In this document: piece after piece, positions 55,889 through 60,594 of the stretch
How positions within the stretch are numbered: position 1 is the first letter of the stretch
Layout: each line of letters starts with the position of its first letter
Origin: Solirubrobacterales bacterium
Lineage (GTDB): Bacteria > Actinomycetota > Thermoleophilia > Solirubrobacterales > 70-9
Assembly (NCBI GenBank): GCA_020438355.1
Contig: JAGQUT010000001.1
Span: 1 to 64,000 of the forward strand
Direction: 5' to 3'
Length of the DNA: 64,000 nt
Notes under the pieces: model-generated
Seen by the model: only the letters and a program-made list of their open reading frames with translations
Database searches by the model: none
What the model was told of the DNA's origin: nothing
Program-made: the position numbers and the translations under genes

Positions 55889-55950
55889 GGCCGGACTGTA
55901 GCCGACCCAGTCGGTATCTTGGCCCTGCGGACCATCGGGCCATTGACTAG

Positions 55951-55974
55951 GTCAGGTCTGTCAGATCCAGTCAG
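55951..55974 (+). repeat. Three GTCAG direct repeats at helical spacing
   Basis: GTCAG at 55,951, 55,960 and 55,970, just downstream of a TATCTT -10-like hexamer (55,915-55,920) and upstream of the sigma factor gene. The 9-10 bp spacing would place them on one face of the DNA. Confidence 0.4.
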
Positions 55975-56020
55975 GTACACCGACCTCTCCGGGGCAAGCT
56001 TGGTTTTCAGACCAAAGAAC

Positions 56021-56611
56021 TTGAATGAGTTATCCGATCTCGACGATGAGTCCCTTTTCTCGTACCTGGTTGCGTCCCGTGACGCCGGTGATCGCCGGGC
56101 CATGTCAGAGGCGGTCTACGCTCTTGTCCAGGCCCGGCTCCCGATGGTCGAAGCGATGGTCGCCCGCAGCACGCCCAAACATGCCCGGGATGACCTCGTC
56201 GAAGACATCCTCACCGATGCCGTTGTCTCCCTTTCGGCTTCGTTTACCGGCGGGCACCAGGGTGAATTCGTCAATTTCATCAAGACGATTGCAAGCCGTC
56301 GGATCGCCGACTACACCGATAAACAGAAGCGGCGGGTCAAGACCGAACCGCTCGAACCCGCCGGCGAGGATGACTGGGTGCCCGAGCCCGAGGGCGGCAC
56401 TAACGACCCCGCAGCCTCCGCCGCCATCAAAGATGCTGTCGAACGGGTACTCGACAGCAAGACAGAAGATCAACGGAAAGTGATCATCATGCGACTGGCC
56501 GGGATACCCTCAAAGAAGGTAGTCGAGGAAATCGAAGGTCAGAGCGTGGCGAACGTCGATCAGATCTTTTCCCGGTTTCGCAAGGACTTGAAGAAGGAAC
56601 TGGACAAGTAG
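56021..56611 (+). CDS. Sigma-70 family (ECF-like) RNA polymerase sigma factor
   Basis: A 196-residue sigma factor. Region 2 (about 8-105) starts SLFSYLVASRDAGDRRAMSE and has TDAVVSLSASFTGGHQGEFVNFIKTIASRRIADYTDKQKRR (in part), the core-binding and -10 recognition helices. Region 4 (about 130-195) is VERVLDSKTEDQRKVIIMRLAGIPSKKVVEEI followed by the recognition helix ANVDQIFSRFRKDLKKE. The spacing has an acidic linker (GEDDWVPEPEGG). The TTG start gives the usual short tail before region 2; earlier TTGs at 55,943 and 56,000 are alternatives. The stop touches the next gene's ATG. No standard zinc anti-sigma gene follows; instead there is an HTH-like protein and an ImmA-type protease. Confidence 0.85.
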   Translation: MNELSDLDDESLFSYLVASRDAGDRRAMSEAVYALVQARLPMVEAMVARSTPKHARDDLVEDILTDAVVSLSASFTGGHQGEFVNFIKTIASRRIADYTDKQKRRVKTEPLEPAGEDDWVPEPEGGTNDPAASAAIKDAVERVLDSKTEDQRKVIIMRLAGIPSKKVVEEIEGQSVANVDQIFSRFRKDLKKELDK

Positions 56612-57265
56612 ATGAACGGTCCCGACGAGATCACCAAGGCATTCGACGAGTACGTCGCCGCATTCAGGGCTGGACACGGCGACCCGAACCCATATCTGGA
56701 GAGATTCTCCGGCGATGATCGCCGCGAACTGGAGGTTCTGGTTGATGCGTTCCTCGAAACGGGCCCTCGTGCCGAAGTCGACCTGTCGGGAGTCCCAGAC
56801 CCGCAGATCGAAGCGATTGCCGAACGAGTGGCCGAAAGAGTCGGGGCATCTTCCGGTGGCCTCTCTGCCCTCGTGCTTGGCTTGCGCAAGCAATTAGCAC
56901 TGAAGAGTTCAGACGTCGTCGCAGAACTGGCAGCCGCCTACAAGGCCACCCCAGCCGAGCGCGAAAAGATCGATGCCTACTACCACGACCTCGAGTGGGG
57001 CACGCTGCCGGCCTCGGGGATCTCCGACAGCCTGCTCGGCTCCCTGGCCAGGGTTCTGAGGACCAAGGCCGAAAGGCTGCGCGAGGCGAGCCGCGAGCTA
57101 GGACCTCCCAGGTCCCGGAGCACCGGTCTGCTCTTCGCCCGTATGGCAGACGATTCCGAGTTTGAACTGGAAGGCCTCGCTGTAAACAATCTCAAGGCAT
57201 CTTCGGGAAAGGCCCGGCGAGCCGATCCACCCGACCGCATCGACGAACTCTTCACTGGCGGTTGA
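56612..57265 (+). CDS. Helical protein with XRE-like region, putative sigma/protease partner
   Basis: A 217-residue protein starting on the base after the sigma factor stop. Residues 1-50 are helical with DPNPYLERFSGDDRRELEVLVDAFL. Residues about 86-150 look like a degenerate XRE helix-turn-helix: VLGLRKQLALKSSDVVAEL, EKIDAYYHDLEWGTLP and ISDSLLGSLARVL, the same order of helices as Cro/CI-type domains next to ImmA-type proteases. The tail (160-217) is charged and likely flexible, with NNLKASSGKARR. It may bind the sigma factor, DNA or both, and be cut by the protease; all of that is inference from position. Confidence 0.65.
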   Translation: MNGPDEITKAFDEYVAAFRAGHGDPNPYLERFSGDDRRELEVLVDAFLETGPRAEVDLSGVPDPQIEAIAERVAERVGASSGGLSALVLGLRKQLALKSSDVVAELAAAYKATPAEREKIDAYYHDLEWGTLPASGISDSLLGSLARVLRTKAERLREASRELGPPRSRSTGLLFARMADDSEFELEGLAVNNLKASSGKARRADPPDRIDELFTGG

Positions 57266-57290
57266 GTTCCGGGGGTGCCTCCGGCGGGAG

Positions 57291-57296
57291 TAAGAT
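57291..57296 (+). promoter_or_regulatory. -10 hexamer of a leaderless promoter
   Basis: TAAGAT ends 7 nt before the GTG of the ImmA/IrrE-type gene, so the protease may also be made independently of the sigma factor transcript. Confidence 0.5.
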
Positions 57297-57303
57297 CGCC
57301 GGC

Positions 57304-57930
57304 GTGTCCATGGAAGGAACGGGAGCCAGGAAGATCACCAGCCTTGATCCGGGAGATGCCGCCGAGATCGAGCAGGATGTAGATGAGATCCTCGGCTCGA
57401 TCCCTGACCATGTCTGGAACGGGCGCAGCTTGCCGGTCCCCGTCGAGGAAATCGCCCGCGAGGTCTACGGACTCCGCATCTGCGTCGTCAGCCATGACCA
57501 AATGAGGGAAGTGGTCGCTGACAGCCTTTGTGACGGAACGGTGTCGGGTCTTCTGCTGACCGGCATCGGCGAGATATGGATCAACGAAGACGAACTCCAG
57601 GATCCTCAATGGGGCGCCCAGCGCGGGCGGTTTACCGCAGGCCACGAGTTGGGTCACTTCGTGATGCATCAGAAGTCCCGGCCTGCGATTTACTGCCGAA
57701 GTTCCGAGGCGGGAGAGAGTCTTGACACCGAGCCGACCCCGCGCACCGTGCCGGAGGTGGAAGCCAATACCTTTTCGGCCGCGCTGCTCTTGCCAGCCCC
57801 GTTGATCAGGGCGGAACTCGACGTGCAGGGACAAAGCGACGAGGAAAGCATCAGCATCCTGATGGCCCGTTTCGGTGCATCGCGGAAAGCCGTGTCCCGG
57901 CGGGTCAGAACGCTAAGGGAGATCACCTGA
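57304..57930 (+). CDS. ImmA/IrrE family metallopeptidase
   Basis: A 208-residue zinc protease of the ImmA/IrrE (DUF955) family. The zinc motif HELGH is at 114-118, preceded by RGRFTAG, and the third ligand region is EVEANTFSAALLLP near 151-164. The C-terminal part (DEESISILMARFGASRKAVSRRVRTL) is the usual helical end with a HTH-like look. ImmA cleaves the phage repressor ImmR and IrrE cleaves DdrO after stress; a similar job on the product of the preceding gene is inferred. GTG start with an internal ATG two codons later. Confidence 0.92.
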   Translation: MSMEGTGARKITSLDPGDAAEIEQDVDEILGSIPDHVWNGRSLPVPVEEIAREVYGLRICVVSHDQMREVVADSLCDGTVSGLLLTGIGEIWINEDELQDPQWGAQRGRFTAGHELGHFVMHQKSRPAIYCRSSEAGESLDTEPTPRTVPEVEANTFSAALLLPAPLIRAELDVQGQSDEESISILMARFGASRKAVSRRVRTLREIT

Positions 57931-57971: not shown

Positions 57972-60101
57972 TCAGTCGAGCGTTCCCGCGAGGCGGGCGG
58001 CGAGGGAGGAGTAGCGGCGGCCGGCTTCGTCTTTTCTGACGCCGGTCTCGAGAGCGGGGCGGTCGCCGACCATGACGCACATCTGGCGGGCCCGGGTGAT
58101 CGCCGTATAGATCAGCGGACGCGAAAGCATCCCGGCGTGTGAGCGGTGGCAGACGAAGATCACGACGGGTATCTCGCAGCCCTGTGACTTGTGGACAGAG
58201 ATCGCGTAGGCCAGCTTGAGGTCGCTTGTTTCCGAGTAAGGCAACTCGACGGACTGTCCGTCGTCGGTTTCCAGCACAACCATCTCCTCGTCGGGGTCAT
58301 CCTCGACCAGAAAGCAGATCGTGCCGTTCATCAAGCCGAACTCATAGGCATTCCTGGTCTGGATCAACCTGTCGCCGATCCGGAATCGGTCAGCTACCGC
58401 CTTCCGGCCGTCAGGATTCAGACGCTGCTGCAGCTCCCGGTTGAGCACGTCGATCCCGGTTTCACCCCGGTAGATCGGAGCGAGCACCTGGGCATCCCGG
58501 ATCGGATCGAGCCCGAGACCGGCCCCGACTCTTTCGCCGACCATCTCGACCACTGCGCTTCGGACCCGCTCCGGCGTCACCCGTTCGAGGAAGTGGAAAT
58601 CCTGGACCTGATCGGGGCCGGGGGAAAGGTGAGGCGGTCGACCCTGATTGATCTCATGGGCGGCCGTGGTGATCATCGACCTGGCCGCCTGACGGAAGAT
58701 GTGGGTGAGGCGGGTGACTGGCACCGTGCCGGACTCGATCAGGTCTGCGAACGGCTTGCCCGCACCTACCGGAGGGAGCTGGTCGGCATCGCCGACGAAC
58801 ACCACGTGGGTGTCCTGCCCGATCCCGTTCAGCAGTACATCCGCCATGTGGAGGTTGATCATCGAGGCCTCATCGACAACCAGCAGGCCGACGGGCAGCG
58901 GATGGCCGGGCTTGTAGGTCGGCTCCGATCCGGGACGCCACTCGAGGATCCGGTGAATGGTCATCGCCTCGGCACCCGTCGCGTCGGAGAGGCGTCTCGC
59001 TGCCCGCCCGGTCGGTGCGCAAAGCCCGACCCGCACTCCCGCGGCCTTCGCCTCTCTGACGATCTCCCTGGTGCAGACCGTTTTGCCGACACCGGGACCA
59101 CCGGTGACAACTGAAAGCCTTGACCTGAAAGCCCCCAGTACCGCCTGCCACTGCTCAGCGGTCAGCTCGGTACCCGTCTCCTGACCGGGTTCATGTTCGA
59201 GAACCGGCTCGGCTTCGGCCCGCTCCCGTAGCTCGGTGGCCAGCCAGCACTCACGATCGAGGGTGCTCTGCCGATACACCCGATCGCCTTCGGTGATCAG
59301 GCCTTGCGCGGACGTCAGGACCTCGGTTTCGGGGCGATACCCGAGCAGCTTCGCTGCCTGGTTCGTCAACTCGTTGACCGGCAGGTGGGTGTGCCCGCGC
59401 CGTTCGGCCTCCCCGATCAGATACCAGGCCGCTGCCTGCGCGCGACGATCCGACTCGGGAGGGAACCCGGCAGCTATCGCGATCGTGTCGGCTCTTGCGA
59501 ATCCGACCCCGTCGATCTCGGTCAGGCTGTAAGGGTCCTCCCGGATCGTCCGCATCGCCCGGTCGCCGAAGCGGGTGTGGATCTTCCCGGCGAGGTGGGC
59601 AAGTCCGTGAGGAGCGAGCTCGACGTGCAGGTCCCTGACTGCCCGCGTCTCGTACCAGCTGTCCAGGGCGGCTTCGCGCTGTTTCGCGCCGAGGCCTGGC
59701 AGCGAGCCGATGATCCCCTCGGGATCAGCCGCGATCTTTTCCAGCACCTCGGGCCCATGAAGGGAACAGAGAGCCTCAGCCCGGATCGGCCCGATGTGTC
59801 TCAGCGAGCTCAGGTAAGCGACCTGGCCGGCCCGGTCGGACGGGTCCATCGGCAGCGCGGAGAAGACCTCGACCTGGGGGCCGTACTTGTGGTGCTCGGT
59901 CCACCTGCCGACCAGCTTGGCCCGCTCCCCCGGCTTCAGGTGGCCGATCGTGCCCGTTGCTATGAACTCGTCCCCGGAGTCTTCCCGGACCTCCACGACA
60001 GCGAAACCACCATCGTCAGCCGACCAGATCACGTGAACGACCTCAACGGCACCGTTGAACGAAGCCTCGCTCTCGAACAGCTTTCCCGCGCCGGAATCCA
60101 C
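57972..60101 (-). CDS. recD2: RecD2-like ATP-dependent DNA helicase
   Basis: A 709-residue SF1B helicase, the normal length for RecD2. N-terminal OB-like part (about 12-80), a helix-hairpin-helix region (about 95-215, with HIGPIRAEAL, SLPGLGAKQRE and EIDGVGFARAD), then the motor: Walker A VVTGGPGVGKT at 331-341, motif II LLVVDEASMI, VFVGDADQLPPVGAG, and the C-terminal UvrD_C_2 block AYAISVHKSQG and YTAITRARQM. It unwinds DNA 5' to 3' in repair, without RecBC. The frame is open far upstream and covers the PadR gene; the GTG at 60,101 is chosen by family length and by CATACT 6 nt away. Confidence 0.9.
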   Translation of the reverse strand: MDSGAGKLFESEASFNGAVEVVHVIWSADDGGFAVVEVREDSGDEFIATGTIGHLKPGERAKLVGRWTEHHKYGPQVEVFSALPMDPSDRAGQVAYLSSLRHIGPIRAEALCSLHGPEVLEKIAADPEGIIGSLPGLGAKQREAALDSWYETRAVRDLHVELAPHGLAHLAGKIHTRFGDRAMRTIREDPYSLTEIDGVGFARADTIAIAAGFPPESDRRAQAAAWYLIGEAERRGHTHLPVNELTNQAAKLLGYRPETEVLTSAQGLITEGDRVYRQSTLDRECWLATELRERAEAEPVLEHEPGQETGTELTAEQWQAVLGAFRSRLSVVTGGPGVGKTVCTREIVREAKAAGVRVGLCAPTGRAARRLSDATGAEAMTIHRILEWRPGSEPTYKPGHPLPVGLLVVDEASMINLHMADVLLNGIGQDTHVVFVGDADQLPPVGAGKPFADLIESGTVPVTRLTHIFRQAARSMITTAAHEINQGRPPHLSPGPDQVQDFHFLERVTPERVRSAVVEMVGERVGAGLGLDPIRDAQVLAPIYRGETGIDVLNRELQQRLNPDGRKAVADRFRIGDRLIQTRNAYEFGLMNGTICFLVEDDPDEEMVVLETDDGQSVELPYSETSDLKLAYAISVHKSQGCEIPVVIFVCHRSHAGMLSRPLIYTAITRARQMCVMVGDRPALETGVRKDEAGRRYSSLAARLAGTLD

Positions 60102-60105
60102 CCGC

Positions 60106-60133
60106 AGAGTATGCGTAGCGCGCCGGATAGACT
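60106..60133. promoter_or_regulatory. Overlapping divergent promoters of recD2 and padR
   Basis: Plus strand: TAGACT (60,128-60,133) ends 8 nt before the padR ATG. Minus strand: CATACT (60,113-60,108), or TACTCT shifted by two, lies 4-6 nt before the recD2 GTG. The two -10s are only 15 bp apart, so polymerase can hardly use both at once. Confidence 0.4.
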
Positions 60134-60141
60134 CGCGTCTC

Positions 60142-60594
60142 ATGGCCGAGCCGTCCAAGCCGCTTGGAGATGCGGTCGCGGAAGCGACCGAAGCCGCGAG
60201 CCTGCCCAAGGCCAGCGGCAGAAAGAAGACCGGCAAGCCCCAGGACGTCTTCGGCGGCGAGATGCGGCGCCGGGATCTCTTGCCGCTCCTGATCTTCCAT
60301 CTGATCCGCGAAGAACCTTCGTATGGGAACCAGCTGATCGATGCGATCGAGACCCTCACCCAGGGTGTCATCTCGGTCAATCCCAACACGATGTACCCCC
60401 TTTTGAGGGACCTCGAAGGTAAAGGGCTGATCGAGGGAAGCTGGGAGCATCCGGACAAGAGGACCCGTCGCTTCTACTCGATTACCCCTGAGGGTGAGGA
60501 GGCCTACGGGGAGCTTCTGACCGAGATCGAACCGTTCCTTGACTCGGTGATCCGGTCGGTGACGATGATCAAGGCAGAGGTTTACGGGTCCTAA
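60142..60594 (+). CDS. PadR family transcriptional regulator
   Basis: A 150-residue PadR protein. An Ala/Lys-rich tail (1-40) precedes the winged helix: [29 protein letters not shown] (in part), [18 protein letters not shown], and [18 protein letters not shown] as wing and dimer helix. PadR proteins repress transporters or stress genes and respond to small aromatic or hydrophobic compounds. No obvious target is adjacent other than recD2 across the shared promoter and the cold-shock gene downstream. Confidence 0.93.

Follow-up and report, generated by a model that had tools for sequence, protein, structure and literature searches.

A sigma factor gene, a gene for a protein with an XRE-type fold and a gene for an M78 metalloprotease form a tightly packed operon, in that order and all on the forward strand, within a 64,000-nucleotide stretch of a Solirubrobacterales genome (contig JAGQUT010000001.1, positions 1 to 64,000, hereafter the window), and we find this trio to be conserved across the class Thermoleophilia. 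Upstream of the sigma gene lies a bipartite promoter-like element which recurs before orthologous DNA-repair genes in genomes that carry the operon and whose occurrence is linked to the presence of the operon. A preliminary description of the window had raised the idea of a protease-gated sigma factor, and it is the element and its candidate regulon that supply a function for this idea. In our estimation the chances are evenly balanced that a cytosolic protease, probably triggered by single-stranded DNA (ssDNA), cuts an XRE-fold sigma inhibitor and thereby frees a sigma factor dedicated to DNA repair.

Conservation of the operon

The middle protein of the operon was searched for among 61 relatives, and a profile scan using a ten-sequence alignment subset was run over one genome per species for 84,980 species, many of the genomes being incomplete metagenome-assembled genomes (MAGs). 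It was present in 34 of the 61 relatives, always as a single match, and the species-wide scan returned 23 loci, mostly from Solirubrobacterales and other Thermoleophilia together with one MAG labelled Chloroflexi. In a set of 57 loci, 53 had room for a neighbour to be seen, and a sigma factor gene lay directly 5' of the middle gene in 48 of these. An M78 gene lay 3' of the middle gene on the same strand and within 1.2 kb in 46/53, which places an XRE-fold gene and an M78 gene side by side as in M78 switches of the DdrO and CapH type. Both neighbours were found at 37 of 49 loci, and 12 further loci obtained by class-wide sampling (two repeats) all had the sigma gene 5' of the middle gene. Co-location over the 57 loci takes the arrangement beyond chance. 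The preliminary description had staked its proposal on the middle gene accompanying the sigma factor or the protease in related genomes, and as the three genes stay together across Thermoleophilia that objection falls away.

Architecture of the three proteins

The first gene had been described as encoding an extracytoplasmic function (ECF)-like sigma factor starting at position 56021. The assignment stands, but the start does not: the gene begins at a TTG codon seven codons earlier (56000), since the seven additional codons (LVFRPKN) match the conserved N-terminus of its relatives (L.F+PK..). Residues 35-194 of the product match the NCBIfam sigma70-ECF model at a score just under the model cut-off (Table 1) and the Pfam region-2 match is weak, while a profile of 28 orthologues finds E. 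coli sigma-E (1or7) among solved structures and gives full-length matches to the sigma-E, SigL and SigH structures. With 203 aa and these matches the protein fits the ECF (group IV) sigma factors, which have the sigma2 and sigma4 domains only, joined by a short linker. Its stop codon directly adjoins the start of the middle gene (56611/56612), as had been noted, and most relatives have an overlap at this junction, frequently ATGA, which implies coupled translation.

For the middle protein (217 residues) AlphaFold2 predicted with confidence a helical N-domain (approximately residues 4-50) and a short helix at the C-terminus. Between them a long helix runs into a Cro/CI fold (82-164), which is followed by a tail predicted to be disordered (approximately 165-208). 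The preliminary description had termed it degenerate Cro/CI-like, and this is borne out in that the predicted fold is clearly of the Cro/CI helix-turn-helix (HTH) kind that defines XRE regulators and the sequence matches to HTH families do not reach the Pfam thresholds (HTH_31, E=0.008, with E<0.1 for 9 of 31 homologues). Structure comparison with VIA aligned the predicted HTH with the CapH N-terminal domain (7t5u, Z 9.1), SinR (Z 9.1) and DdrO (6rnx, Z 8.4) over 64-67 residues, where rows within 1 Z are tied and likeness of fold shows no function. CapH and DdrO are known substrates of M78 proteases. Sequence searches of the PDB yielded nothing credibly related to the middle protein. The protein contains no cysteine and lacks the HxxxCxxC motif of zinc-binding anti-sigma factors, in agreement with the earlier suggestion that the switch would operate without one.

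The N-domain matched no Pfam family and was found in 100 of 399 Thermoleophilia genomes searched. One genome carries, convergent with its full trio, a second sigma-like gene that scores weakly and overlaps the next gene, which encodes a stand-alone N-domain of about 78 residues (L084:7603-8335, reverse strand). This is a single case, but it points to the N-domain as the part of the protein that faces the sigma factor. A model of the sigma factor and middle protein as a single in-frame fusion (TAG read as Q) gave a predicted local distance difference test score of 84.2 and a predicted TM score of 0.64, which describe the whole fusion and not the interface. Two motifs stand out in the C-terminal part of the middle protein. 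Arg177 is present in all of 31 aligned homologues, and an F/Y/M-x-R motif was found in 45 of 57 sequences; an invariant arginine in a disordered tail would suit an M78 cleavage loop. Phe214, likewise present in 31/31, belongs to the C-terminal motif D-I/V-D-x-L-F, which is found in 52/57 by strict pattern. At a separate locus (L085:5584-7047, reverse strand) a second N-domain gene whose HTH part is apparently broken is followed by an M78 gene, resembling a decaying duplicate of the middle gene.

The third gene encodes a 208-aa protein whose earlier assignment as a DUF955 (M78) protease with an intact HELGH (57643-57657) was confirmed by its match to Pfam Peptidase_M78. In addition to the HExxH motif, the downstream glutamate ligand expected of the family is represented by E149 and a nearly invariant E151 across 29 orthologues. 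The closest solved structure by profile is CapP, followed by an HTH-M78 protein and IrrE, and PADLOC likewise finds capP closest (Table 1). The likely start is the GTG at 57304, the alternatives being TTG 57262 and ATG 57310. Seven nucleotides before this GTG lies the TAAGAT hexamer that had been proposed to allow separate expression of the protease; the TANNNT hexamer and its spacing are kept in 4 of the 6 closest relatives, a layout as in leaderless promoters. At several order- and class-level relatives (L030, L033, L063, L279, L281, L282 and L288) the nearest M78 gene is more divergent and lies on the opposite strand or upstream of the sigma-middle pair.

Elements upstream of the sigma gene

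Aligning the upstream regions of relatives revealed two blocks. The distal one, block A, has the core TAGCCGAC-N7-GTATCTTG and was scanned for as TAGCCGAC-N5/8-GTATCTTG (55899-55921). It occurs exactly once per genome and only before the sigma gene in 9 of 11 genomes of the genus, and in none of 3 relatives without the operon; in the window it has dyad-like CCGAC/GTCGG arms. Block A may combine a basal promoter with an operator placed within the spacer. The proximal one, block B (TGTCAGA-N15/16-CGAC), looks like the -35/-10 pair of an ECF sigma factor, and the pattern GTCAG-N16/17-SGAC was found just 5' of the sigma gene in 25 of 48 loci, with a shuffle expectation of 0.17.

The conservation of block A as a single copy with dyad-like arms, found only before the sigma gene, together with an XRE fold that is well predicted and resembles DNA-binding repressors, raises the question as to whether the middle protein represses the operon in the classical way, binding DNA at block A in the manner of ImmR, CapH and DdrO. 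Cleavage would then derepress the operon, with the sigma factor as a mere output that is not bound directly. We regard this as unlikely, if a serious contender. The protein is acidic overall, with a mean net charge near zero in the HTH domain, and its recognition-helix region is replaced by VxxYYHxMExG; in some homologues of the f2 family this region degenerates further and yet the tail motifs remain. A repressor would also not account for the N-domain, for its stand-alone copy after a sigma gene or for the coupled translation, and would provide no shut-off once the sigma factor had activated its own operon at block B. Inhibition of the sigma factor and repression of the operon could hold together.

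Candidate regulon

Scanning for the block B element with relaxed spacing gave 13 matches in the genome of the window and 5 for a control, this control being the reversed pattern, which is only roughly matched, so that orthology is the better test. With the strict N15/16 spacing we found 74 sites in 15 genomes of the genus (control 14), 24 in 13 carriers of the operon from other genera (control 1) and 6 in 9 genomes of the same family lacking the operon (control 4). As start codons are frequent in GC-rich DNA, enrichment of sites before any open reading frame was not taken as proof and spacing was instead compared orthologue by orthologue. This was done for the gene of an AddB-like PD-(D/E)XK protein (PF12705, 7e-36). 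Among 17 carriers the element precedes this gene in 13, and its distance to the start is 14-15 nt in 12 of these. Among 10 non-carriers it does so in 1, a member of the genus whose genome is 73% complete (Fisher p=0.0013).

Other recurrent targets, with distances counted from the first base of the element, were genes for SbcD (2 genomes, 37 nt), a DnaQ-like exonuclease (3 genomes, 41 nt), a DUF2130 protein (3 genomes, 95-96 nt) and a YPDHGSP protein (4 genomes, 35-36 nt). HD-domain nucleases resembling YhaM were targets in 2 genomes, and RmuC, SSB, ClpC, HtpX, ARPP-1 and a Cas9 N-terminus were each found in a single genome.

The promoters of the mycobacterial regulator PafBC begin TTGTCRG and also drive DNA-repair genes (PMC5656591), and two WYL domains occur in one reading frame in all genomes tested. 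The TGTCAGA promoters might therefore belong to another damage regulator such as a PafBC-like WYL protein, the operon being one target among others and its sigma factor doing something else. This we consider improbable. PafBC promoters (TGTCRG) require TANNNT after 8 nt (PMC5656591), but no TANNNT was found at that spacing (plus or minus 1) in any of 51 sites. The classical PafBC pattern is absent from the genome G000. Non-carriers possess WYL proteins and LexA just as carriers do, and the element is missing before their AddB-like genes. PafBC, whose promoters have the form TTGTCRGTG-N8-TANNNT, is thus disfavoured as the reader of the promoter.

That the middle protein and protease are a toxin-antitoxin or mobile-element pair merely lying beside a sigma gene is very improbable since, although XRE-M78 pairs are often annotated so and the protease weakly matches a repressor/antitoxin family, the middle gene is mostly single copy per genome and conserved over the class, its product has no plasmid match and the sigma gene accompanies the middle gene no less constantly than the protease gene does.

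Several further observations were made at sites of the element or around the operon. In one genome (G003) the N-terminus of a Cas9-like protein stands at a contig edge (L117), 41 nt downstream of the first base of a TGTCAGA-N15-CGAC site, a hint that a CRISPR effector is controlled in response to damage in that genome. A GRVDD protein family, containing TPR in L220, recurs after the element (L098, L107, L215, L220), as does a small family with the sequence MW.VT.RGFYSVVDKG and no Pfam match (L103, L113, L130, L154, L230). Certain families found among the targets also adjoin the operon itself. Genes for VWA-like and GRVDD-type proteins lie upstream of the sigma gene at L056, and genes resembling the ARPP-1 target do so at L059 and L060, these neighbours having been assigned by reading the sequences and not by family search.

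A proposed model for protease-gated sigma factor release

Operons in which a sigma gene is coupled to that of its partner and transcribed from an autoregulated promoter are typical of sigma/anti-sigma pairs. The simplest account of the trio would join two known modules, the cleavage of an XRE-fold partner by an M78 protease and the sigma/anti-sigma operon. We infer that the sigma factor reads the block B element, that the middle protein inhibits the sigma factor, that the protease cuts the middle protein and that ssDNA is the cue. The middle protein, made in step with the sigma factor, would keep it inactive, most likely by binding through the acidic helical N-domain, and the protease would also be made from a weak promoter of its own. 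A cytosolic cue would activate the protease, most likely ssDNA as for CapP and PprI, two M78 proteases in which ssDNA is reported to stimulate cutting of the XRE-fold partner (PMC10904395). The activated protease would cut the disordered tail of the middle protein near the invariant FAR motif, and the freed sigma factor would take RNA polymerase to TGTCAGA-N15/16-CGAC promoters including that of its own operon, a positive feedback which would also remake the inhibitor. The resulting regulon would be rich in DNA-processing and proteostasis genes. In its fullest form the model describes a hitherto unreported DNA-damage response of Thermoleophilia. A cytosolic M78 protease activated by ssDNA would act on an anti-sigma factor of XRE fold that binds sigma through a new kind of N-terminal domain, and the ECF sigma factor released by the cut would be dedicated to DNA-repair genes, alongside LexA and a PafBC-like regulator. 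This is a tentative proposal to which we give somewhat less than even chances.

A number of observations weigh against sigma factor release by the protease. Members of the f2 family frequently have the M78 gene upstream or on the opposite strand, divergent members of the class lack the element upstream of the sigma gene, and some carriers (G018, G019 and G029) have no strict site. The few sites in non-carriers include one in G023 (L244), 37 nt before a gene for an SNF2-type helicase, where the trio was undetected; this site is either due to chance or read by a divergent, undetected sigma factor. Most genomes of the genus are closely related and the association statistics ignore shared ancestry. 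In addition, the HTH may still bind DNA.

Neighbouring gene and feature coordinates

Downstream of the operon and convergent with it, as originally described, lies a gene for a RecD2-type helicase, and the same is seen in several members of the genus. No strict site of the operon's promoter type was found upstream of RecD2, so it was dropped as a member of the regulon and appears to be a neighbour, not a target.

Table 1 Coordinates of the operon, its upstream elements and the adjoining gene in the window
Feature	Position	Strand	Basis
Block A, TGTAGCCGAC-N7-GGTATCTTGG, conserved upstream of sigma; candidate basal promoter and/or operator	55893..55923	+	Alignment
Block B, TGTCAGA-N15-CGAC, ECF-like -35/-10 element	55959..55984	+	Alignment, genome scan
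ECF-type sigma factor	56000..56611	+	TTG start, taken from relatives; 203 aa; TIGR02937 1.1e-10; PDB profile match to sigma-E 8e-13
Middle protein (N-domain of helices, XRE/Cro-fold domain, disordered tail), putative inhibitor of sigma and substrate of the protease	56612..57265	+	31-sequence alignment, AlphaFold2, structure comparison
N-domain (approximately residues 1-60), candidate sigma-binding module	56612..56791	+	No Pfam family; 100/399 class genomes; stand-alone copy in L084
XRE/Cro-fold domain (residues 82-164)	56855..57103	+	VIA structure comparison: CapH N-terminal domain, SinR, DdrO
FAR motif (residues 175-177) of the disordered tail, putative cleavage region	57134..57142	+	Arg177 in 31/31 homologues
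C-terminal DRIDELFTGG (residues 208-217), candidate docking helix	57233..57262	+	Phe214 in 31/31 homologues
TAAGAT, -10-like hexamer, 7 nt before GTG 57304	57291..57296	+	Same layout in 4/6 closest relatives
M78 (ImmA/IrrE-like) metalloprotease	57304..57930	+	PF06114 3.9e-14; CapP 7t5t 1.6e-14; IrrE 3dte 1e-5; PADLOC capP 4e-23
RecD2-type helicase	57972..60251	-	HHH_RecD2 1.5e-20; also adjoins operon in several genus members

Discussion

If the model is true, a proteolysis module of the DdrO/CapH kind has been rewired to a sigma factor, such that promoters are switched when inhibition is lost. From the candidate regulon, a further DNA-repair circuit seems to exist in the Thermoleophilia, a deep class of poorly studied actinobacteria of soil and water which also encodes LexA and a PafBC-like protein. 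The proposal predicts a bipartite promoter, a list of targets, a scissile region near the invariant arginine and a new candidate sigma-binding domain. Our search of the literature, which did not extend to the main ECF reclassification, found no M78 protease that acts on the partner of an ECF sigma factor, and the group may already be catalogued in that reclassification. A review of non-canonical ECF systems lists release by zinc-redox, partner-switch and mechanosensing mechanisms besides the canonical membrane proteolysis, with no soluble M78 protease that targets an XRE-fold partner among them (PMC8999054).

Among known systems IrrE/PprI-DdrO of Deinococcus (PMC10904395) shares with the trio the pairing of an M78 protease with an XRE-fold partner and an intracellular damage logic, and an essential arginine in the cleavage region of DdrO has a counterpart in the invariant arginine of the tail. 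Unlike DdrO, which is a repressor that binds target promoters, the partner here has an extra N-domain and carries its arginine in a disordered tail, the output is apparently a sigma factor, and the 208-aa protease lacks the long GAF-bearing C-terminal part. CapH-CapP of the cyclic oligonucleotide-based antiphage signalling system (CBASS) offers the closest protease in the profile search (7t5t, 1.6e-14) and an HTH fold that ranks among the closest, and CapP cleavage is reported, in work cited in PMC10904395, as ssDNA-stimulated. In contrast with CapH-CapP the cluster holds a sigma factor and no CBASS genes, and the targets proposed for it are DNA-repair genes of the chromosome.

ImmR-ImmA of ICEBs1 is likewise a pair of adjacent genes for an XRE-fold regulator and an M78 protease. 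The trio differs from it in having a sigma factor and another partner architecture, and as far as tested is not on a mobile element. PafBC of mycobacteria (PMC5656591, PMC11804915) provides LexA-independent control of DNA repair from promoters starting TGTC(A/G)G with an ssDNA cue, but adapts the housekeeping sigma factor to promoters with TANNNT after an 8-nt gap, whereas here CGAC follows at 15-16 nt and the presence of the element tracks the ECF operon. The sigma/soluble-partner system described in PMC8999054 resembles the trio in that a sigma gene overlaps the next gene, which encodes a small soluble partner, and the sigma operon is apparently autoregulated; the partner in the trio differs in having an XRE fold and no zinc motif, and release of its sigma factor would use a cytosolic M78 protease.
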